Source: Lachnospiraceae bacterium (GTDB lineage: Bacteria > Bacillota > Clostridia > Lachnospirales > Lachnospiraceae). From it: a stretch of 55,467 nt of DNA. Position 1 is the stretch's first letter. Each line of letters opens with the position of its first letter. The notes beneath the pieces were generated by a model. It was not told the origin of the DNA and made no database searches. It saw nothing but the letters and a program-made list of their open reading frames with translations. Positions 7,721-34,329 of this stretch are shown piece after piece. The stretch covers positions 1-55,467 of the forward strand of contig JAJQCQ010000066.1 of assembly GCA_021202635.1 (NCBI GenBank). Reading direction: 5' to 3'. A program made the position numbers and the translations under genes.

Positions 7721-10609
7721 ATGAAAGACGCAAATGAAAACAGACAAAGGATCGGGACCCGCAATTCCCTGAGGGATTTCCGGCAAACGCTAAAACGCAT
7801 TCCCTGGAAAAAAATCGGCATCGGATTTGCCGCGGCCCTGGCATTGTTTTGCCTTACCGTGCTCCTCATCATCTGGCGCCTGATCGCAGCCGCTCCCTCC
7901 ATCGATTCCATTGACGTCTCTCCGTCCGGATCGGCCACCTGGATCTGTGACGAAGACGGAAATTACCTGCGCCGCCTCTCGCTTTCTGAGTCCAACCGGG
8001 ACCTCGTATCTCTTGAAGAGATTCCGCTCACCCTGCAAAACGCAATCATCGCCATCGAGGATTCCCGTTTTTATGAACACAGCGGCATTGACCTGCGCGG
8101 CATTGCGCGCGCCTTCTGGAGAGGACTTACCAGCGGTTCTTTTTCAGAGGGAGCCAGCACCATCACACAGCAGCTGATCAAAAACAGTGTTTTCACGGAC
8201 TGGACGCAGGAAACTTCCTTTGCTGACCGCTTTTCCCGAAAGGTGCAGGAGCAATATCTGGCCATTTTGCTAGAAAAACAGCTTTCAAAGGAAGAAATCC
8301 TCGAGGATTACCTGAATACCATCAACTTCGGCTCTGGCTGTTATGGTGTAGAAGCTGCGGCGCAGCGGTATTTCGGCAGAGAAGTCTCCGACCTGACTCT
8401 TTCTGAGGCAGCGGTTCTCGCAGCCATTCCCCAAAATCCGACCGCTTACAACCCGATCGAATACCCGGAATCAAATCAGACCAGACAGCGCCTGATTCTG
8501 CGTTACATGGAAGAACAGGGATACATTACGCACGAAGAGCGGATGAAAGCCCTCGAAGATGATGTTTATCTGCGCATCAGCGCTTACAATGACACCTACG
8601 AAGCCGATTCCGCTTATTCCTATTACGAAGACGCCCTGATAGACCAGGTTATAGAAATGCTGATGTCCGATCTGAACTATTCCAGTGAGCAGGCCGCGAA
8701 AGCCGTGTACAGCGGCGGACTGCGGATTTACTCCGCGCAGGATGCTGCCCTTCAGGCCGTCTGCGATGAGGAATTTCAGAATCTGGCAAACTTCCCCGAA
8801 GGCACACAGTACGGCATCGACTACGCGCTTGTCATCCAGGAGAGGGACGGCTCCACCACCACATACGGCACGGAAGCCCTGCGTTCCTGGGTACGGGAAA
8901 ACCAGGATTCCTCCTTTGACCTGCTCTGCGGCACACAGGAAGAAGCACAAAATTATGTGGATGCGTTCCGGGAGTATGTTCTGAATTCTGCTTCAGCGGA
9001 CGATACTGCAATAGACACTCCTTCCGGCAGCAGTCCTGGCGCAGACACCGCCGACCGCAGCGTCACCGCTTCCCGCACCGTTCTCTCTGAACGGCTCACC
9101 CTTTCCCCGCAGCCGCAGGCCTCTCTCGTGCTGATTGAGCAGGAGACCGGCTTTGTCCGCGCGATTGTCGGCGGACGCGGCGAAAAAACGGCCAGTCTGA
9201 CACTGAACCGCGCGACCGATACCACCCGGCAGCCTGGTTCCACCTTCAAAATTCTGACCGCCTATGCCCCTGCGCTGGATTCCGCGGGACAGACACTCGC
9301 CACACTCTATGAGAATGAACCTTACGAATATGAGGACGGTACAGCAGTCAGCAACTGGGACATCACCGACTACTCCGGCACAGTCACCATCCGCGAGGCC
9401 ATCACCCGCTCCATCAATGTCGTCGCGGTCCGCTGTATCACCGAGATCACTCCGCGCCTGGGTTTCACCTACGCCGAGCGGCTCGGAATTTCCACCCTTA
9501 TCGATAACTGGGAGTCGTCCGATGGCTCCACCGACGTCATCCAGCCGCTCGCACTCGGCGGTATCACCAATGGCGTGACCAATCTCGAGCTCTGCGCTGC
9601 CTACGCCACCATTGCCAACGGGGGAATGTACGCCGAACCGCTTTTTTTTACCAAAATACTCGACCAGGATGGAACTGTACTGCTGGACGCCAGTGAGCGC
9701 TCTGCCACAGCAAGCGCCCGCCAAAGCGCTGCTGCCGATCCCACTGCCTCCGGCCGACAGGCTGCCGCAGACAGCAGCGTAACCGCGACGGTCGATCCAT
9801 CCGGCCGCAATACCGCAGAAGGCATATCTTCCGGCCTCGGCAGTTTCACGCGCGTCCTGCAGGAGAGCACCGCCTTCCTGCTCACAAGCGCCATGGAAGA
9901 CGTCGTCTCTTCCGAAAATGGAACCGCCTTCGGCACCATCTCCGCTGCCGGACAGCCTGTCGCAGGCAAAACCGGCACCACCTCCAGCTACAAGGATATC
10001 TGGTTTGTCGGCTACACCCCCTGCTACACCTGCTGTGTCTGGGGCGGCTATGACAACAACCAGGCACTCCCGGACGGCTCCGGCTGGCACTCCTACAGCC
10101 GCACACTCTGGACATCCGTGATGGAGCGAATCCACACCGGACTTCCCGCAGGGGAATTCACCCAGCCCGAAAGTGTTACCGAAGTAACCCTCTGTGCGGA
10201 AACACATCTGCCAGCCAGTGCCACCTGTTCCTCCGTCTACAGCGAATATTTTGCCGCAGGGACCGAGCCAGACGAGATGTGCGCCGGGCATGAAACCGAA
10301 GCTGAGCCAGAGTCAGAAAATGAGACCGATGAAATTATCATCTATCCGGAGCTGCTGGAGGAGTTGCTGCCGGAAACCGAGACGGAAGGCGAGACAGAGA
10401 CAAAAGAGGAAGCAGATAATACGGATGATAAAGGAGACGCAACAAAGGAAGAAACAGGTAGTGAATCAGAGAATGAAACAACCATCGAGACAGAATACGA
10501 TTCGGACAGCATCAATCCGGAAATAGAAAATTCCAGCAACACCGCAGAAACCAGCTCCCTGGACGACCTGATGAGCCGTCTGATCGGGGAAGGCTTTTCC
10601 ATCTACTGA
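7721..10609 (+). CDS. Class A penicillin-binding protein (PBP1a type)
   Basis: Bifunctional peptidoglycan synthase, 962 aa. After a basic cytoplasmic tail, one transmembrane helix lies at about residues 30-58. The GT51 glycosyltransferase domain carries EDSRFYEH (catalytic Glu113), GASTITQQLIKN and the conserved AILLEKQLSKEEILEDYLN. The transpeptidase domain has PGSTFK (active Ser507), SIN (Ser564-Asn566) and KTGTT (Lys750). From about residue 860 the tail is an acidic Glu/Thr/Ser-rich extension ending in SRLIGEGFSIY. AAAGGA lies about 10 nt before the ATG. It stands alone, with no partner gene on the plus strand. An extra Ala/Ser-rich linker near residues 660-705 interrupts the transpeptidase region. 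Confidence 0.95.
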   Translation: MKDANENRQRIGTRNSLRDFRQTLKRIPWKKIGIGFAAALALFCLTVLLIIWRLIAAAPSIDSIDVSPSGSATWICDEDGNYLRRLSLSESNRDLVSLEEIPLTLQNAIIAIEDSRFYEHSGIDLRGIARAFWRGLTSGSFSEGASTITQQLIKNSVFTDWTQETSFADRFSRKVQEQYLAILLEKQLSKEEILEDYLNTINFGSGCYGVEAAAQRYFGREVSDLTLSEAAVLAAIPQNPTAYNPIEYPESNQTRQRLILRYMEEQGYITHEERMKALEDDVYLRISAYNDTYEADSAYSYYEDALIDQVIEMLMSDLNYSSEQAAKAVYSGGLRIYSAQDAALQAVCDEEFQNLANFPEGTQYGIDYALVIQERDGSTTTYGTEALRSWVRENQDSSFDLLCGTQEEAQNYVDAFREYVLNSASADDTAIDTPSGSSPGADTADRSVTASRTVLSERLTLSPQPQASLVLIEQETGFVRAIVGGRGEKTASLTLNRATDTTRQPGSTFKILTAYAPALDSAGQTLATLYENEPYEYEDGTAVSNWDITDYSGTVTIREAITRSINVVAVRCITEITPRLGFTYAERLGISTLIDNWESSDGSTDVIQPLALGGITNGVTNLELCAAYATIANGGMYAEPLFFTKILDQDGTVLLDASERSATASARQSAAADPTASGRQAAADSSVTATVDPSGRNTAEGISSGLGSFTRVLQESTAFLLTSAMEDVVSSENGTAFGTISAAGQPVAGKTGTTSSYKDIWFVGYTPCYTCCVWGGYDNNQALPDGSGWHSYSRTLWTSVMERIHTGLPAGEFTQPESVTEVTLCAETHLPASATCSSVYSEYFAAGTEPDEMCAGHETEAEPESENETDEIIIYPELLEELLPETETEGETETKEEADNTDDKGDATKEETGSESENETTIETEYDSDSINPEIENSSNTAETSSLDDLMSRLIGEGFSIY

Positions 10610-27337: not shown

Positions 27338-28602
27338 TCAGCTCAGCATCTCCAGGAACGCCCCCAGCCGCGTGGCGGTCTGTCCCTCTCCGCCGTGGCT
27401 CCGGTCACAGCCATCCCCATCAAGAATCAGTGTCGGAAGCCCCGCGGCCTCAAAACGCTTCTTTGCCAGCTGTGAACCGCCCAGCGTGTGTTTACATCCC
27501 CAGTGGTTAAACCATACAACGCCGTCTGCCTTCGTCTCCTTCGCATGCCGGATCCCGGCGTCAATCCGCCGCGTAATACTGCCATTCAGCGAATGATACA
27601 CAAGCCGCATCGCCATATCCTCATACGGATCCTCCGCATGATGCTCCAGATCAACGACCTGCGCAAGCTCGCAGCCGACGATCTGTGCGCTCTCCTTCAG
27701 CAGAAACGCCTCCTTCACTGCCTCAGACCAGAAAGGAATCGTATGCATCCAGTATATGCGTTTTCCCCTGGCGGATTCCGCCTTATTCAGTCCCTTCAGC
27801 AGCCGCCTGGTATACAGCTCCTCTTCCTTCGTGCCCAGTAAAATATTGTTCGTCATGCCGCAATACATCGGCGATACCAGATCCTCCGGAATGTATTTGT
27901 CCACGCGCCATTTCTGAAACTGGTCATAATTCTCCAGCGTCCTCCTGCTGCGCGCCAGGCGCTCACGCAGGCTTGCGTCGTCGATCTTTTTTCCGGTATT
28001 TTTTCCAGAAAAACGCCCAGATCGCGGAGCTGTCCCGCCACATAAGCGACATTCGCGTCATTCCGCTCTGCCGGAATATCAATCGCAAAGCTCGGTACAT
28101 CGTACAACGCCGCCAGCTCCTTGAAGGTCAGCAGGTTCGCGTCACAGGCGAGGCTGGTATAGACAATGCAGCGCGGCCTGGGAAGCAGTCCCCTCTTTGC
28201 CGCCCCGATAAACGTCTTATGATAGCTGCACAGCGTCTCTGAAATTCCGGCGTCCTCCGCCGTCTGCAACAGTGCCCGCTCTGCCTTCGAACCGGCCAGG
28301 TAACAGGAAAAGCCCTCCACATTATATGGATAAAGCCCTGCCTCCTGCATCAGCTCACAAGGCGTAAATATGCTGACCAGGATGCTGTGTTCCGGATCCT
28401 TCAGCGGCTTTAGCATCGTATCCATCATCAGACGCGCCAGGTACTGGTCCGCCGAAGACAAGGTTTTATCCGGTGCCAGCCGGAGCTTCAGGTCCTGTGC
28501 CTCCCACCCAGTTTTCAAAAGGCCCCGCGCACGTGCCGGGTCGGTTTCACTCCACTTCTCTACATAACGGCCAAACGTCTCTACAACCTGCAAATTTTTC
28601 AT
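27338..28602 (-). pseudogene. 2-hydroxyacyl-CoA dehydratase HgdB-like subunit, frameshifted
   Basis: One gene split by a single-base shift. The upstream part (28602 to about 28000) encodes MKNLQVVETFGRYVEKW ... IFTPCELMQEAGLYPYNVEGF ... VYTSLACDANLLTFKELA. The downstream part encodes WMHTIPFWSEAVKEAF ... VWFNHWGCKHTLGGSQ and ends ILDGDGCDRSHGG. Adding one A to the A6 run (27999-28004 on the plus strand, six T) restores LEKNTGKKIDDASLRERLAR and a continuous protein of about 421 aa with the cysteines expected for a 4Fe-4S dehydratase. Everything else is intact, so this may be a recent mutation, homopolymer slippage (phase variation or recoding) or an assembly error. The start at ATG 28602 follows AGGAAGG closely; a TTG three codons later is possible. 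Confidence 0.8.
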
Positions 28603-28737
28603 CCTTCCTGCGGGAATCGGCCTTCTGCCGATGCCCGTCCAAACCACAATACTCTTTTGACGCAAATTCCGTGCGAATTATACGACAAATTCTAAAATTT
28701 GTAAAGGCAGCGAAAGAAACCGTGGCCGGTCACCCTT

Positions 28738-30435
28738 TTAGCATTTTTTCTTCGCCGCAACTGCTTTTTTCATACAGACCCAGTAATTGCGCTCTTCCGG
28801 GTCATGGGCAGCGGCGATCAGCCCTGCCATCTCTTCCGGCGTGGACATCCAGTCGCCGCGCACACGCCCTTTGTCCAAACAGCGATACGCCTCCCGCATC
28901 GTTTTTTCATCCGTTCCGGCACATACCAGGTCCTCCTCCACCTGCCAGGAAGCATCGTCATATTCGTCATTCCCAAACTCTCTGGTCTTTGCGTCAAAAG
29001 TAAGCTCAAAAATCCGACTGTCCCCAAGGTCAGGAAGATAGCAGGCATCCTCCACCGTTTCCTCTATATGCAGATAATAAAGAGAAGCGCGGCTCTTGCC
29101 TTCTTTTTTCCGAATAATACGCCCCAGACGCTGCGTTCTCTGCCTGTGCCCGGCTGTGCCGGACAGAATAATGCCGATGGAAGCATCCGGGATATCCACG
29201 CCCTCATCCATTGATTTACAGGTAATCAGGATCCGGTATTCACCCATGCGGAACCGTTCCAGGCTGTTTCGATTTGCCTGCTCCCCCATCTTTGAATGAC
29301 ATCGGCCTACCCGCCCCGGATACTGCAAATTCAGGACACGATATAATTCCTCCGCCTGCGCAATCCGCTCCCCAAAAACCAGGATTTTTTCCCGTCCGCC
29401 CAGCAGCCGGATCAGCTCCTCCGCGCATGAGATCCTTGCCGACGCCAGACATACCAGTTTTTTTCTTTTATAAGACAGATTCAGATAAATCCGTGCAAGG
29501 CGGGCAATCTCCCGATTTGCTCCGCCCTTGCGCTGTGCTTCCGACAACTGCGTTTCCTGCCGCTGCCCGGAAGGAAACGATGAGCCCGTCATCCCGGTAC
29601 TGAGCCTGCGAAGCTCTTCAAACAAATCCCTCTGACTTAGCCCTTCTAAAAAAGGAGCCTTTTTCCTTAACACATCAAAGCACCGCGTCATCCGGTCGGT
29701 GATATCCTCGTATTCAGCCATTTCCTCCGGCCAGAAGGTCAGAGCGACATGAAACACATCAATCGGACAGATGGTTTTCCTGTCGGTCGCTTTTGCCATT
29801 CCATAAGAATAAATACGCGGCCCAAGCGACTCCGCAAGGATGCGCCCGCTCATTCCCGAAGGCAGGGTGGCCGATAGCCCCAGCGAATAATACGCGGCCT
29901 TTTCCTTATTGATCCGGGTCAGAAACTCAAAAATCAGATGATTTTCTCCGCTTGCGTAATGATGGCACTCATCCGCTATCAGAAAAACAGCTTCTCCTCT
30001 CTCCAGCTGTGCCAGAATCTGCCGCGCCAGTTCATAACGGGCGGAATTAACCACATAGATCATATATTTACAATTTACCGGATCCTTGCGTCCGCCGCCG
30101 CGCAGACCGATTCTATCCTCTCCCGGGGATTCCGCCTTTTCCCTTCGATATTCCCGGAGCGCTTTTCCCCATTGTCTCATCAAAGAGCTTGTGGGAACCA
30201 CGATTTTTACCATTACCTTTCGCCCCAGCTTCTGTTCCAGGGCATCGATCGCACGCAGGGCAAGCCTGGTTTTCCCAGAACCGGTAACAGCCTGAACCAT
30301 GCCCCTTCCGCCATTTTCCAGCCACCTCTCCAGGCATTCCCCTTGCCATTGATAAAGAATCACCGGGCCTTCCTCCGGCGCAGATGCACTGACATCTCTC
30401 ATCGACCGCTCTGTCTGTGGCAAATCTTTTTTCAT
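28738..30435 (-). CDS. DECH-box superfamily 2 helicase
   Basis: 565-aa nucleic-acid-dependent ATPase of the XPB/ComFA/RadD-like class. Motif I is AVTGSGKT (residues 49-56), motif Ia VVPTSSLMRQW, motif II IADECHHYA near 157, motif III GLSATLPSG near 195, and motif VI QRTQRLGRIIRKKEGK near 430; the QYQWQGECLERW stretch at the N-terminus acts like a Q motif. The C-terminal 110 residues (DASWQVEEDLVCAGTDEK onwards) are not a known domain to me. AAAGGAG lies 9 nt before the ATG. It is divergent from the three-gene operon at 30763-34006, with matched promoters, and probably belongs to the same system. It lacks the accessory domains of a chromosomal repair helicase such as PriA or RecG. Confidence 0.87.
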   Translation of the reverse strand: MKKDLPQTERSMRDVSASAPEEGPVILYQWQGECLERWLENGGRGMVQAVTGSGKTRLALRAIDALEQKLGRKVMVKIVVPTSSLMRQWGKALREYRREKAESPGEDRIGLRGGGRKDPVNCKYMIYVVNSARYELARQILAQLERGEAVFLIADECHHYASGENHLIFEFLTRINKEKAAYYSLGLSATLPSGMSGRILAESLGPRIYSYGMAKATDRKTICPIDVFHVALTFWPEEMAEYEDITDRMTRCFDVLRKKAPFLEGLSQRDLFEELRRLSTGMTGSSFPSGQRQETQLSEAQRKGGANREIARLARIYLNLSYKRKKLVCLASARISCAEELIRLLGGREKILVFGERIAQAEELYRVLNLQYPGRVGRCHSKMGEQANRNSLERFRMGEYRILITCKSMDEGVDIPDASIGIILSGTAGHRQRTQRLGRIIRKKEGKSRASLYYLHIEETVEDACYLPDLGDSRIFELTFDAKTREFGNDEYDDASWQVEEDLVCAGTDEKTMREAYRCLDKGRVRGDWMSTPEEMAGLIAAAHDPEERNYWVCMKKAVAAKKKC

Positions 30436-30467
30436 CTGTGCGCTCCTTTTCTGCCTGTACTTTTGTC

Positions 30468-30494
30468 GTAACTGTTCAGTACCTTCACAGTTAC
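30468..30494. repeat. Palindromic repeat, GTAACTGT type, copy 2
   Basis: Identical to the 27-nt palindrome at 14541-14567; it falls in the predicted 5' leader of the helicase mRNA. Confidence 0.75.
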
Positions 30495-30513
30495 CTTTTG
30501 TCTTCTTTCTATC

Positions 30514-30542
30514 ATACTAACTATTCCGGGAAGAATTTTCAA
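30514..30542 (-). promoter_or_regulatory. Putative promoter of the helicase gene
   Basis: On the minus strand TTGAAA (30542-30537), a 17-bp spacer and TAGTAT (30519-30514). The -35 lies inside the left 13-bp inverted-repeat arm. The -10 is only 4/6; TATGAT three bases further is an alternative. Confidence 0.5.
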
Positions 30543-30659
30543 CCGAATTTCCACTGCGTTTTCGTTACCTCTACGTTTTCACCCCTTACCCCGCAGCAAG
30601 TGCGTGGTCGGGTTGTGACCAGTAACATGTTTTCACTTTTCAAAACATTCGGTTGAAAA
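30536..30659. promoter_or_regulatory. 13-bp perfect inverted repeat, candidate shared operator
   Basis: TTTTCAACCGAAT (30536-30548) and ATTCGGTTGAAAA (30647-30659), 98 bp apart. Each arm contains the -35 of the promoter reading outward, so one regulator or one RNA polymerase geometry could control both directions. Confidence 0.6.
30564..30626. repeat. Palindromic repeat, family B
   Basis: Bounded by GTTAC and GTAAC, with the inner hairpin CGCA GCAAG TGCG; related to 34068-34125 and 39590-39651. Confidence 0.65.
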
Positions 30660-30681
30660 GTTTCTTCACTTCATATATACT
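30653..30681 (+). promoter_or_regulatory. Promoter of the 257-aa gene/ATPase operon
   Basis: TTGAAA (30653-30658), a 17-bp spacer and TATACT (30676-30681), each 5/6 to consensus; about 80 nt before the first ATG. Confidence 0.7.
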
Positions 30682-30762
30682 TCATAATTAAGAGTGAAAA
30701 TCGTAACTGTGAAAGAACAGAACAGCTACAATAAATCTATCATACACAAAGGATGAACGCAT

Positions 30763-31536
30763 ATGAATTACGAAGACCTCTACCAGGCCCTTTTGCCTGA
30801 CGAAAAATCACTGAAAGACGGCATCGCCTCCCTTCAGAAGCTCCAGAAAACGATTGTCCGGGAGACAGAAAGCGGCGATCTCAAATATCTTTCCAGAGAC
30901 TTAAATACCCTGGCGCAGACTGCCGCCGCGCTCTTGGCAACCATTGAAGCTCTGAGCAGCTCCGTTAACTCCTTTGATGCAAAAGCTTATTTCGAAAGCG
31001 GCGATTTCGCCTCGCAGATGCTCGATCTCTGCCGTGAACAGAATGTAGACGTCCAGGGCGAATTCCCGGTTTACGAAATGTTTCCTCACCGCGTAAAGCT
31101 GGACGTGGAAAATCAGGACGTTTACCTGGACAAAAAACGCATCCAGTGCGTGCGGCCGTCCAGTTTTGTAAAAACAGTAAAAATCAGTCAGGAAAAGCTG
31201 AAGAAAGTCCGTTTCAACGCAGACTCTTTTGCCGGCGAGCTGGAGGACGCTTATGATCTGGCCATGCTGAAGCTTAAGAAAAAGCCGGGCTCCGTTCTCT
31301 ATCTGACCAGCCTGTACAAATTTCTGACTCCTATGAGCCGGTTCCGTAAGGACTACGATCTGCAAAGCTTTTCCTATGACATTTCACGGCTTTACGCAGA
31401 ATTCATAGAGGGAATGAATACGACAAAAAGTGGGCGAAGCTTTGATTTCGCGCCCGCGCACGAAAATAAAAAGGCGATCCGTATTCTTGATGCTTATGGA
31501 AATGAACAGTTCCTGGCGACGATTCGATTCTTCTGA
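30763..31536 (+). CDS. Uncharacterised 257-aa protein of the helicase/ATPase island
   Basis: I do not recognise a family. The N-terminal third (about 1-75) is helical and coiled-coil-like (SLKDGIASLQKLQKTIVRE, LNTLAQTAAALLATIEAL). The middle (about 85-140) is beta-rich (FPVYEMFPHRVKLDVENQ, VYLDKKRIQCVRPSSFVKT) and the C-terminal part is mixed, ending IRILDAYGNEQFLATIRFF. There is no signal peptide, membrane segment or nuclease motif. AAAGGATG lies 8 nt before the ATG. It is the first gene of an operon with two P-loop ATPases, so an adaptor or DNA/protein-sensing role for their complex is a reasonable guess only. A hairpin CTTCGCA GTGAG TGCGAAG lies in the 114-nt gap to the next gene. Confidence 0.8.
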   Translation: MNYEDLYQALLPDEKSLKDGIASLQKLQKTIVRETESGDLKYLSRDLNTLAQTAAALLATIEALSSSVNSFDAKAYFESGDFASQMLDLCREQNVDVQGEFPVYEMFPHRVKLDVENQDVYLDKKRIQCVRPSSFVKTVKISQEKLKKVRFNADSFAGELEDAYDLAMLKLKKKPGSVLYLTSLYKFLTPMSRFRKDYDLQSFSYDISRLYAEFIEGMNTTKSGRSFDFAPAHENKKAIRILDAYGNEQFLATIRFF

Positions 31537-31650
31537 TCCAAAGGTATGGAACCGTTCCTTTCTATTTTCATACGGTCTTCGCAGTGAGTGCGAAGCCTGC
31601 CTCAAACAGCTGCCAAATACAGTATTACTCTTACAGAAAGAAGGGCCAAA

Positions 31651-32802
31651 ATGCCAGAGTATGAATCAACAGCCGGCATCAGTTTTCTGACTGATTTCTG
31701 GCAGAAACAGTATCTTCAGGAATACATCCGCGACGGCGGAAGCAAGATAAAATTCGTGACCGGGCGTCCCGGCAGCGGCAAGACACATTTTCTGCGGCTG
31801 ATGACAGGCCTTGCCAGAAAAGAAAATTATAAAACGGTCAGCTTTTCCGCCAAAGATATCTGGATGCACGATTTCCGCGACATTTATGTAGAAATTATCA
31901 ACCAATGCGACATTATGGACTGCCTGACGGCTGCCAGCCGGAAGGTGATCCGGGAAATGGGATATGATCCGGCCGAAATTCCGGAAGGAATGAAGTTTAT
32001 TGACTACCTCTCTCAAAGCGGCTTCGGTGATCCGATGACCCGCCGCGAAATCCGGTCGGTTTTGCGCAATATCTTCCTTGATAACCCGCTTCTGGACAAC
32101 AATTTTGCCCTGGCCTGCAGCATGCTCACCGGCAGTATCCTTGGCTACCCCATTCTTGAAGAGCAGAACAAAGAGCTGCTTCTCTCCTGGCTGAGGGCTG
32201 ACCGCGACGTAAAGCTTGCACAGCTGCGCGCGCTCGGATTTTACCCGGCTAAGATCTCAAAATATAACGCACGGAATATGCTCCGCTCCCTGGCAGAGGT
32301 CATCCATATGGGCGGATATTCCGGCCTCTTCCTTGCGATTGACGATGTGGAAATCCTCATCAGCCGGACAAGCCTGGAAACGGTACACTACACGAAAATG
32401 AAACGTGACGACACCTACGAAAGCATCCGCCAGCTGATCGACGATATCGACAGCATGCACCATGTTTTCTTTGTTTACGCATTTGACCGTGCACTCATTG
32501 ACAATGAAAACGCTGGTCTGAAATCCTATCAGGCCTTATGGAACCGGATTCAGAACGAAATCGTCGGCGAGCGCTTTAACCGCTTCTCGGATATGGTCGA
32601 TCTGGACCGTCTGGCTTCCCAGGAATACACCCCGGACATCATTGTCGCCATCTCAGAAAGCCTGGCCCGGCAAAAGCAAAGCGCGACGGTGACTCCCCTG
32701 GATAAAAAAAGCGCAAAAGCCCTGGCTGCGCAGTCCCGCAATGGCAGCATTGGCCTGGCACAGCAGATATTAAACGCGATGGAGGTGGAAAACAATGGCT
32801 GA
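31651..32802 (+). CDS. P-loop ATPase A (BREX-ATPase-like)
   Basis: 383-aa AAA-like ATPase. Walker A is GRPGSGKTH (residues 38-46). Walker B is FLAIDDVEIL (Asp at about 231-232), followed by a sensor-like FFVYAFDRALIDNE. The rest is helical, as in AAA+/STAND-type ATPases. It resembles proteins annotated as BREX-system ATP-binding or DUF2791-like, but more weakly than its downstream neighbour. The start at ATG 31651 follows AGAAGGG. Its last codons overlap the next gene by 8 nt (ATGGCTGA), so the two ATPases are translationally coupled and probably made in a fixed ratio, possibly as a hetero-oligomer. Confidence 0.82.
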   Translation: MPEYESTAGISFLTDFWQKQYLQEYIRDGGSKIKFVTGRPGSGKTHFLRLMTGLARKENYKTVSFSAKDIWMHDFRDIYVEIINQCDIMDCLTAASRKVIREMGYDPAEIPEGMKFIDYLSQSGFGDPMTRREIRSVLRNIFLDNPLLDNNFALACSMLTGSILGYPILEEQNKELLLSWLRADRDVKLAQLRALGFYPAKISKYNARNMLRSLAEVIHMGGYSGLFLAIDDVEILISRTSLETVHYTKMKRDDTYESIRQLIDDIDSMHHVFFVYAFDRALIDNENAGLKSYQALWNRIQNEIVGERFNRFSDMVDLDRLASQEYTPDIIVAISESLARQKQSATVTPLDKKSAKALAAQSRNGSIGLAQQILNAMEVENNG

Positions 32803-34006
32803 CACAGGATATAATTTTGAAGCCCGTCACATGATCGAGGTTCTTCGCTCCGGCATCCCTTCCCGCGCGGTAGGGGCCTGCTTTTCTGAAGCCCGTCCCA
32901 AAATCATGAAAGAAATCTGCGGGCAGCTGGAACAGGTCAGTGAAAATCAGAAATCCGGCGGCAAGATAATCTGCGGCAAATACGGAGAGGGCAAAACGCA
33001 TCTGCTGAACACCATTTTCAACCTCGCAGGAGCGGACAACATGGTCGTCTCCTACATCTCACTGAGCAAAGAAACGCCGATGGACAAGCTGTATCTTTTT
33101 TATCAGAAAGCCATGCAGAACACCTATCTGCCCAGAAGGCAGCAGCCAGGCTTTATGCATGAGGTGGAAAATATTTCCGCCAACAGTCCCATAGCCAATG
33201 AGATGCTGCTCTATGCGGCAAAACAGCTGGAAACAGATAAACTCTATTACCTGTTCCGCTCTTATCTGAATACAGAAGATTCAGATGAAAAGTTCATTCT
33301 CCAGGCTGATCTGGAAGGGGATTTCATGGCAAATGCTCCGCTGAAAAAGATTTATCGGCGAATCTTCAACCAGCCCGCGAAATACAACGTCAATTTCGTA
33401 AAAACCAGGCACTGCGCAGACTATTTCAGATTTATGAGCCATCTGTTTTTACAGATGGGGTATCACGGTTGGGTCATCCTTGTAGATGAGACAGAGCTGA
33501 TGGGACGGCTCAGTAAAAAAGCCCGGCTGAATGCCTACAAAAATATGGCAGGCTTCCTGCTCCCGGAAAACTGCCCGGAAGCGACCTTCACTTACTTTGC
33601 GCTGGCTTCCTCCTACCCGGAAGATGTCATCGAAGGAAAACACGAGTTTGAAAACCTGGAAACCGCTTATCCGGAACAGCCGGATCTGCAGGAACCCATC
33701 CGCGTTGTCCTGAACCTTTTGAATGACGCGGAACAGCTCCAGCCCCTGACCAAAAACGAGATTAACGAAGTACTCTTAAAGATTCAGGACTTCCACGGTC
33801 AGGCCTACGGCTGGTCGCCCAGTCTGTCCGCGCGGACACTTGCGCGCTCTACACAATCCGGAGGCTACCTGCTCCGGACAAAGATCCGCGCCGCGATCGA
33901 ATTTCTCGACCAGCTCTACCAGTACGGAAAAGCCGGAAAAACAACCATCAACGAACTGGGAGAGGAAACCTTCGAAGAAGAAGTGCCTTTGATCGAGGAT
34001 ATTTAA
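32795..34006 (+). CDS. P-loop ATPase B (BrxC/BrxD-like, DUF2791-like)
   Basis: 403-aa ATPase. The N-terminal ARHMIEVLRSGIPSRAVGAC is the characteristic opening of the BrxD/DUF2791 group, followed by Walker A GKYGEGKTH (61-69) and ISLSKETPMDKLYLFYQKA. Walker B is WVILVDETELM near residue 230, and FTYFALASSYPEDV is a sensor-like strand. The C-terminus TKIRAAIEFLDQLYQYGK is also typical. In BREX, BrxD-type ATPases accompany a helicase, a methylase (PglX) and PglZ; here only the helicase is nearby. It is the last gene of the operon, followed by a weak hairpin at 34020-34044. Confidence 0.85.
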   Translation: MADTGYNFEARHMIEVLRSGIPSRAVGACFSEARPKIMKEICGQLEQVSENQKSGGKIICGKYGEGKTHLLNTIFNLAGADNMVVSYISLSKETPMDKLYLFYQKAMQNTYLPRRQQPGFMHEVENISANSPIANEMLLYAAKQLETDKLYYLFRSYLNTEDSDEKFILQADLEGDFMANAPLKKIYRRIFNQPAKYNVNFVKTRHCADYFRFMSHLFLQMGYHGWVILVDETELMGRLSKKARLNAYKNMAGFLLPENCPEATFTYFALASSYPEDVIEGKHEFENLETAYPEQPDLQEPIRVVLNLLNDAEQLQPLTKNEINEVLLKIQDFHGQAYGWSPSLSARTLARSTQSGGYLLRTKIRAAIEFLDQLYQYGKAGKTTINELGEETFEEEVPLIEDI

Positions 34007-34019
34007 GGAATTGTTACAA

Positions 34020-34044
34020 AATCAGGAGCTCAGACGCTCTGATT
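34020..34044 (+). terminator. Weak terminator-like hairpin after ATPase B
   Basis: Stem AATCAGGAGC / GCTCTGATT with one bulge. The T-run (TTTTTT) only comes about 17 nt later. Confidence 0.35.
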
Positions 34045-34067
34045 GTCACGTATGAGGTAGTTTTTTC

Positions 34068-34125
34068 GTTACAGATCACACCCCGGCCACAACATTTGCC
34101 GTGCAGTCAGCGTGTGACCAGTAAC
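34068..34125. repeat. Palindromic repeat, family B, full copy
   Basis: GTTACAGATCACACC ... GTGTGACCAGTAAC, a 58-nt imperfect palindrome. Confidence 0.65.
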
Positions 34126-34329
34126 GTTTTTCTCCTCATGCGCGACACCTTTTCTGCTTTTCCGCTAACCATGTTCTTTTACTGCTGCCTTTTCCTCGCT
34201 TTTTCAATCCGGGTTACCGGTCTCCTTCCGACCATTCACATCCCTTTGTCTGCTGCAAACAGGCGCAATAACAAACCGGGGCGTGTTTGATTCCTTCCAT
34301 TTCGGAAATAATTTTCTAATGAATTTTCA

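Follow-up and report, generated by a model that had tools for sequence, protein, structure and literature searches.

A four-gene helicase cassette of Lachnospiraceae is built on a conserved trio with an unequal ATPase pair, whose relatives adjoin varied DNA motors and type I CRISPR-Cas genes

We analysed a 55,467-nucleotide (nt) stretch of a Lachnospiraceae bacterium genome (GenBank assembly GCA_021202635.1, contig JAJQCQ010000066.1, positions 1 to 55,467; hereafter the window), in which four genes make up an accessory cassette at 28708-34284, assigned to neither strand and bounded by the edges of an empty site in sister genomes. HEL (28738-30435, minus strand, 565 amino acids, aa) encodes an XPB/ResIII-type superfamily 2 (SF2) helicase with the motif II DECH and a helical C-terminus. 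It diverges from three plus-strand genes: UNK (30763-31536, 257 aa), for an adaptor-like protein outside known families and folds; AT1 (31651-32802, 383 aa from its likely ATG), for a BrxC/D-type AAA+ protein predicted to be ATP-binding and hydrolysis-poor; and AT2 (32795-34006, 403 aa), for a BrxC/D-type AAA+ ATPase whose Walker A and Walker B motifs are both complete. UNK, AT1 and AT2 are called the trio below, and L and G numbers denote loci and genomes, G000 being that of the window. All four open reading frames (ORFs) were confirmed where the original prediction, made from the letters alone, had placed a helicase, an unknown protein and two ATPases. The AT1 ORF itself opens at 31588, and translation from the conserved start probably begins at the ATG of 31651, which follows AAGAAGGG; the AT1 and AT2 reading frames overlap by 8 nt. 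Between HEL and UNK lies a divergent promoter region (30436-30762, no strand). A regulatory palindrome in this region was considered and discarded, as the GTAACTGT inverted repeat had no counterpart in 15 relatives; a second palindrome there is common to the window and L005 only.

The four genes co-occur elsewhere, the point on which the original prediction had been staked beforehand: a scan of GTDB genomes with UNK found them together in 53 of the 60 UNK-bearing loci from other genomes. HEL diverges from UNK, AT1 and AT2 in 52 of these 53 complete loci, the exception being L046, with HEL downstream on the same strand. The four-gene set is far from chance. The 60 loci come mostly from Lachnospiraceae and other Clostridia, together with Desulfosporosinus, a Desulfitobacteriaceae metagenome-assembled genome (MAG) and one Sphaerochaeta MAG. 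Six of the seven incomplete loci end at a contig edge (L005, L009, L016, L039, L040 and L042), and the seventh, L064, holds a decayed cassette with remnants of UNK and AT2 only (8232-9118). Single cassette genes are split into two ORFs in three loci (AT2 in L011, AT1 in L016, HEL and UNK in L052), through either assembly errors or inactivation. The flanks vary, the widest-spread cluster among 599 flank ORFs from 64 loci covering 13 loci, and the cassette therefore consists of these four genes.

Presence of the cassette protein UNK is patchy, both in the family (4 of 150 sampled genomes by BLAST) and in the genus (10 of 47 by profile), the window's own genome being counted each time. In two genomes, G671 and G672, UNK is absent and the neighbour genes of either side share a contig. 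Homology between the window and G671 (L184) ends at 28707 and restarts at 34285, with about 5 nt between, and in G672 (L185) the BLAST matches of the two sides are about 149 nt apart; the occupied site is common to G660 (L187) and G670 (L186). Comparison of the empty with the occupied site therefore indicates that a single 5.6-kb unit was cleanly gained or lost. This empty site and the conserved order bear out the earlier view of a compact, self-contained system. Carriage on a mobile element was examined and rejected: the proteins tried gave no match in plasmids, phages or viral contigs, the cassette contains no integrase, and its edges show no clear target duplication. Beside the site, an HGD-D dehydratase-like gene (27338-28665 in the window) is split into two overlapping ORFs; it is also broken in L005 (a 270-aa ORF) and G666 (a 274-aa frame), and is one open 440-aa frame in G660 and G671. 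The split is probably a frameshift in the window's lineage.

The conserved core of this arrangement is the trio. At 1e-6, an AT2 profile had matches in 24 of the 398 phylum genomes searched, other BrxD-like proteins included, and among the 20 regions fetched from these matches 15 carried UNK-AT1-AT2 and only three (L095-L097) carried HEL; a wider UNK profile (A5), run on two classes, matched 29 of 113 genomes in the first and 4 of 20 in the second. The trio was complete in 95 of the 108 loci screened, all 95 distinct in sequence and forming a convenience sample rather than a census. With a partner called when identified within 1.3 kb, the neighbour was HEL in 57 loci, a superfamily 1 (SF1) helicase in 15, cas genes in six, an SNF2 helicase in four, a helix-turn-helix (HTH) protein in three, BrxL in two and none in eight. 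The SF1 neighbours are Dna2/Upf1-type helicases with a topoisomerase zinc ribbon (by Pfam on two examples, by similarity for the others); the SNF2 call rests on Pfam for L108 and L149, and the BrxL call on Pfam for L102. Seven of the eight loci without a partner are cut by contig ends or lie on contigs of about 3 kb (L016, L040, L042, L103, L146, L167 and L168), and L104 is a genuine case of no identified partner.

The partners fall largely into clades of a FastTree phylogeny of the joined trio, requiring 6 Fitch changes over 87 labelled tips against a possible minimum of 5, whereas 1000 shufflings of the labels gave a mean of 28.6 and a minimum of 25. Tree support was 1.0 for the CRISPR, SF1 and SNF2 groups, compared with 0.61 at the node that unites L097 with the HEL group. 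A remoter set at L109 combines a distant UNK, two BrxD-like ATPases and a BrxHI/SngC-like helicase. The surroundings of the HTH-linked trios L105-L107 resemble those of BREX or restriction systems: L105 has DUF6079 and a type II methyltransferase, and L106 a D12 adenine methyltransferase. Another expansion of the ATPase-helicase theme is found in L112 (4785-11277), which has three tandem BrxD-like ATPases, a BrxHI/SngC-like helicase and a 278-aa unknown protein.

Both ATPases of the trio belong to the superfamily of the Pfam model BrxC_BrxD (PF10923, curated cut-off 22.2 bits). The BrxC/BrxD signature first read in the second ATPase is indeed present there (AT2, 6.6e-23, 81.7 bits), but is not peculiar to it, as AT1 matches the model better (9.9e-31, 107.5 bits). 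Neither protein has a related solved structure by sequence at E 0.01. AT2 retains the Walker A lysine in 95 of 95 loci; both acidic residues of Walker B, aspartate and glutamate, are present in 91 of the 91 rows with letters at those positions. The catalytic position of AT1 is glutamate in one of 95 loci, aspartate in 58, asparagine in 24 and another residue in 12, yet E257 and R260 are retained in all 95 loci, and 94 of 94 have R299. Judged from sequence, the two proteins show the pattern of AAA+ partners of which one would hydrolyse ATP and the other would support it, with AT1 residues probably acting in trans. ORC1 and ORC4 are such a case, where one member hydrolyses and the other supports. 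One subunit apparently catalytic, one not, and the trans residues kept are the features of an active/inactive pair of the ORC/Cdc6 type, and the proposed coupled hetero-ATPase gains ground from two divergent PF10923 proteins with overlapping genes and seemingly opposite catalytic status. The Walker A lysine of AT1 follows the partner: it is kept in the HEL-linked (57 of 57), SF1-linked (15 of 15), HTH-linked (3 of 3) and BrxL-linked (2 of 2) loci, and lost in those linked to CRISPR (kept in 0 of 6) and SNF2 (0 of 4).

For UNK, no match was obtained in Pfam at the cut-off, nor in PADLOC or NCBIfam up to E 1. Its structural model (predicted local distance difference test, pLDDT, 84.4) has two long N-terminal helices, a central beta/alpha part and C-terminal strands; it matched no PDB fold at E<=0.001, and by sequence there were weak PDB matches only, to helical, mostly designed proteins. 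Because the ten residues invariant among 18 diverse sequences are P, P, F, F, L, L, L, Y, L and G, UNK looks less like an enzyme than like a structural protein or an adaptor. A nuclease is unlikely, given no invariant charged residue in these 18 sequences and no fold match. Kinship with SngA was rejected (hhalign probability 0.2% against the SngA of this genome), and kinship with the 278-aa protein of L112 was not supported (3.8%); a relationship to the 286-aa protein of L109 was supported (92.9%).

HEL combines the Pfam domains ResIII (5.3e-21) and Helicase_C (9.4e-16), has XPBII as its best PDB match by sequence (1.4e-44), and gave an AlphaFold2 model (pLDDT 85.9) that ends in helices; no nuclease domain was detected in it by Pfam. 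The DECH of motif II is present in 57 of 57 HEL sequences, QRxQRxGRxxR in 56 of 57, and TG[AST]GKT of motif I in all 57, with A or S at the variable position in 49 and T in 8. Among PADLOC models, HEL matches the helicase part of PbeA best (1.5e-55) and BrxHI only at 8e-4, which places it nearer PbeA and XPB than BrxHI. Distances of HEL and the trio are correlated (Mantel r 0.934, n 55), a value uncontrolled for organism descent that we do not take as proof of co-function.

In six loci, cas genes stand directly beside the trio, and in five of these (L098, L099, L101, L147 and L148) the trio is co-directional with the cas set. Among the cas-linked trios a Cas3-type helicase lies within 0.5 kb in two and within 6 kb in five. 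The operons belong to three type I subtypes (I-A, I-B and I-D), in which the trio occupies the boundary of effector and adaptation genes. The gene order is cas3, cas8a, cas7, cas5a, a DUF4282-like protein, UNK, AT1, AT2 in L098 (type I-A), where the adaptation side holds only fragments of cas1 and cas4; cas8b, cas7b, cas5b, cas3, UNK, AT1, AT2, cas1, cas4 in L099 (type I-B); cas10d, cas11d, cas7d, cas5d, cas3, UNK, AT1, AT2, cas1, cas4 in L101 (type I-D), which adjoins an array of 85 repeat copies; and cas4, cas2, cas1, AT2, AT1, UNK, DUF4282, cas5d, cas7d, cas11d, cas10d, an HD protein and a Cas3-like helicase in L147 (type I-D, in a genome of two contigs). L148 is of type I-B, its cas1 and cas8b being PADLOC calls and its other cas genes assigned by similarity, and it has an array of 46 repeat copies. 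AT2 starts 3 nt from cas1 in L147 and 9 nt from it in L148. At a greater distance, the regions adjoining L098, L099 and L101 also hold a cas6 gene, and L100 has cas6 only, with no other cas gene in its three neighbours or the adjoining 20 kb. The CRISPR clade comprises eight tips, including L146 on a 3.1-kb contig and L149 beside an SNF2 helicase on a 5.4-kb contig. Small DUF4282-related proteins adjoin the trio in these operons (L098, 11780-12148; L101, 9889-10248 and 13509-13769; L147, 10270-10674), with a weaker relative in the SF1 locus L161; we found no open-access literature naming both DUF4282 and CRISPR.

The CRISPR association might be mere adjacency of two immune systems with no functional link, an explanation that rivals the wider claim for the trio and not the reading of the window cassette. 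Immune genes do cluster, L149 of the same clade stands beside an SNF2 gene, L100 has only its cas6, and L160 keeps UNK (9440-10111) in a type I-B cas operon where AT1 and AT2 were undetected, possibly a decaying trio. However, the co-directional placement in five loci across three subtypes, the 3 and 9 nt that separate the trio from cas1, and the loss of the AT1 Walker A lysine in six of six cas-linked loci all argue for more than clustering, and we regard simple adjacency as unlikely, if conceivable. The CRISPR loci matter for the window because they place a related trio in immune systems elsewhere. Identity to the L101 trio is 27% for the window UNK and 34% for the window AT2. The only Cas1 found in the window's genome is on another contig (G000:C56 65207-66061), away from the cassette.

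With modest confidence, we propose that the cassette is a small accessory anti-invader system derived from a portable module, in which the trio would load or license a DNA motor. AT2 as the active member and AT1 as an ATP-binding, hydrolysis-poor one would form an asymmetric ORC/Cdc6-like AAA+ assembly on DNA, AT1 giving an arginine and other trans residues to AT2, and UNK would be the adaptor tying this assembly to the motor. ATP turnover by AT2 would then load or license the motor, here HEL, on a particular structure of incoming phage or plasmid DNA, where translocation or unwinding by HEL could block replication of the invader or expose its DNA to host nucleases. We favour a motor loader because motors have been exchanged, the trio is positioned beside Cas3 and Cas1, and BrxD-BrxHI and SngB-SngC provide precedents; a neighbour that, in the wider sample, is mostly a DNA motor while the trio is kept also counts for it. 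The proposal as a whole draws further on the four-gene set amid varied flanks, the patchy distribution, the empty site, the catalytic asymmetry of AT1 and AT2, and the cas operons of three subtypes that hold the trio, two of them with arrays. Since trio relatives adjoin quite different DNA motors, including inside CRISPR operons, the trio is probably a hitherto unrecognised helper of immune motors. SngB and BrxD, relatives of AT1 and AT2, act in anti-phage systems beside a helicase. The surroundings of the sister clades include CRISPR, BrxL and methyltransferases, those of the window clade mostly ordinary genes. For the window clade a defence role is presumed.

Several observations weigh against this proposal. 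No motor was seen among the neighbours scanned in the three HTH-linked loci and L104, no CRISPR array in the stretches of L098, L099, L100 and L147, and L160, as noted, has UNK without detected ATPase genes. No homologue was found in plasmids (AT2 and UNK searched), phages (AT1 searched) or viral contigs (AT2 searched). The cassette contains no nuclease or toxic effector that we could find, and a killing step is therefore missing. A tally by Pfam (PADLOC was not run on flanks) of the nearest long ORF on each side in the window clade, covering 93 of 99 listed genes, did not point to a defence island: the flanks are mostly ordinary, and among the first 25 of 131 families the commonest reach 4 of 93, with a few nuclease-like and UvrD matches. 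Finally, the nearest solved relatives of HEL are the XPB/RAD25 repair and transcription helicases.

These last two points would also suit a DNA repair or replication-restart cassette, in which the ORC-like pair would put an XPB-like helicase on host lesions or stalled forks, with no defence in this clade. It would be unusual, however, for a repair unit to be so patchy within a genus and to have an empty site, and the sister trios adjoin BrxL or are found inside CRISPR operons, so that we consider this improbable. The undetected nuclease would, in turn, be compatible with signalling or abortive infection, in which an AT1/AT2 switch would sense phage products or HEL activity and the effector would be UNK or a host protein; the ORC/Cdc6 clade also holds STAND immune switches, according to PMC10853773. 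UNK has neither an invariant charged residue nor a fold match, and what has been exchanged repeatedly is a DNA motor and not an effector, which makes this scheme quite improbable.

A wider reading extends beyond the window clade. Tentatively, and with somewhat less than even expectation, the trio, with AT2 active, AT1 a decaying partner and UNK the adaptor, could be a general ORC-like motor-loading cassette of bacterial immunity. It would have been joined separately to motors of the XPB-like, Dna2/Upf1-like, SNF2, BrxL and BrxHI-like kinds, and also to the Cas3-Cas1 core of I-A, I-B and I-D CRISPR, there to assist Cas3 recruitment or spacer acquisition at the expense of ATP. If the trio does serve Cas3 or Cas1 in type I CRISPR, it would be an unrecognised component of cas operons, and a shared motor-loading device would link innate and adaptive immunity. 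In BREX (bacteriophage exclusion) type 2 and in Shango an ORC-like ATPase stands beside a helicase and its role is not established, loading being a proposal (PMC12839542); the trio offers a natural swap experiment, with one ATPase pair and adaptor beside several unrelated motors and one ATPase frozen in some clades.

Among known systems, the original prediction had pointed to a stripped-down BREX module. Both ATPases do match PF10923. However, PglZ (PF08665) had no match in the window's genome, which is 97.5% complete, in a search whose control found PglZ in 2 of 14 known genomes; scores against the BrxD equivalog NF033438 (77 bits for AT1, 36.5 for AT2) fall far below its cut-off of 350; UNK matches no PADLOC model; and HEL is nearer PbeA and XPB than BrxHI. 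A reduced BREX is thus already largely refuted and hardly tenable. The absence of PglX, PglZ and BrxA/B predicted within 20 kb is confirmed for PglZ, genome-wide; no search was made for PglX or BrxA/BrxB. The BrxD-BrxHI dyad of BREX type 2 is alike in that a PF10923 ORC-like ATPase is coupled with a helicase that it has been proposed to load (PMC12839542). The cassette differs in having two ATPases, UNK and a different helicase, in a genome with no PglZ match.

The PbeABCD (CxC ABC-ATPase/DndE) systems resemble the cassette through HEL, which among PADLOC models is most similar to the helicase part of PbeA. PbeA is described as an HKD nuclease fused to a helicase (PMC10853773), whereas HEL matches the top four PbeA models from profile positions 241-272 on. 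UNK, AT1 and AT2 match no Pbe model, and neither a PbeA with its nuclease part, a CxC ABC ATPase nor a DndE relative was identified in the cassette. A phosphorothioate link, considered in view of the HEL matches to PbeA and TIGR04095, found no support: only the helicase part matched, and DndC (TIGR03183) had no match in the genome at E 0.001, in a search with a weak control, since none of 14 control genomes passed the cut-off, and with SspD not searched. The archaeal XPB helicase is similar in its core. It pairs with the nuclease Bax1, whereas HEL is partnered with AAA+ proteins and no nuclease partner was found in the cassette. Accessory genes of type I CRISPR-Cas are comparable in that cas operons of subtypes I-A, I-B and I-D contain a sister clade of the trio, although the window cassette has no cas genes; the open-access literature gave no description of the trio or its CRISPR link, which the supplement of PMC10910872, with 188 CRISPR-linked modules, may list.

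Shango (SngA-SngB-SngC), which protects Pseudomonas aeruginosa from phage according to PMC10250203, likewise unites a BrxD-like AAA+ ATPase, an SF2 helicase and a third protein, with one ATPase there against an unequal pair in the cassette. AT1 and AT2 score 59 and 42 bits against SngB, compared with 634 for the genuine SngB of the genome. SngC is outside the best 25 of 34 PADLOC matches of HEL, so any match would be weaker than E 0.0019, whereas the genuine SngC of the genome scores 916 bits; HEL, on those best 25, does not qualify as SngC, nor UNK, with no PADLOC match to E 1 and 0.2% by hhalign, as the TerB-like SngA. A complete Shango lies elsewhere in the same genome (L113, G000:C30 about 55086-60481; SngA 3.7e-64, SngB 4.3e-191, SngC 4.2e-276), and this genuine example shows how different Shango and the cassette are.

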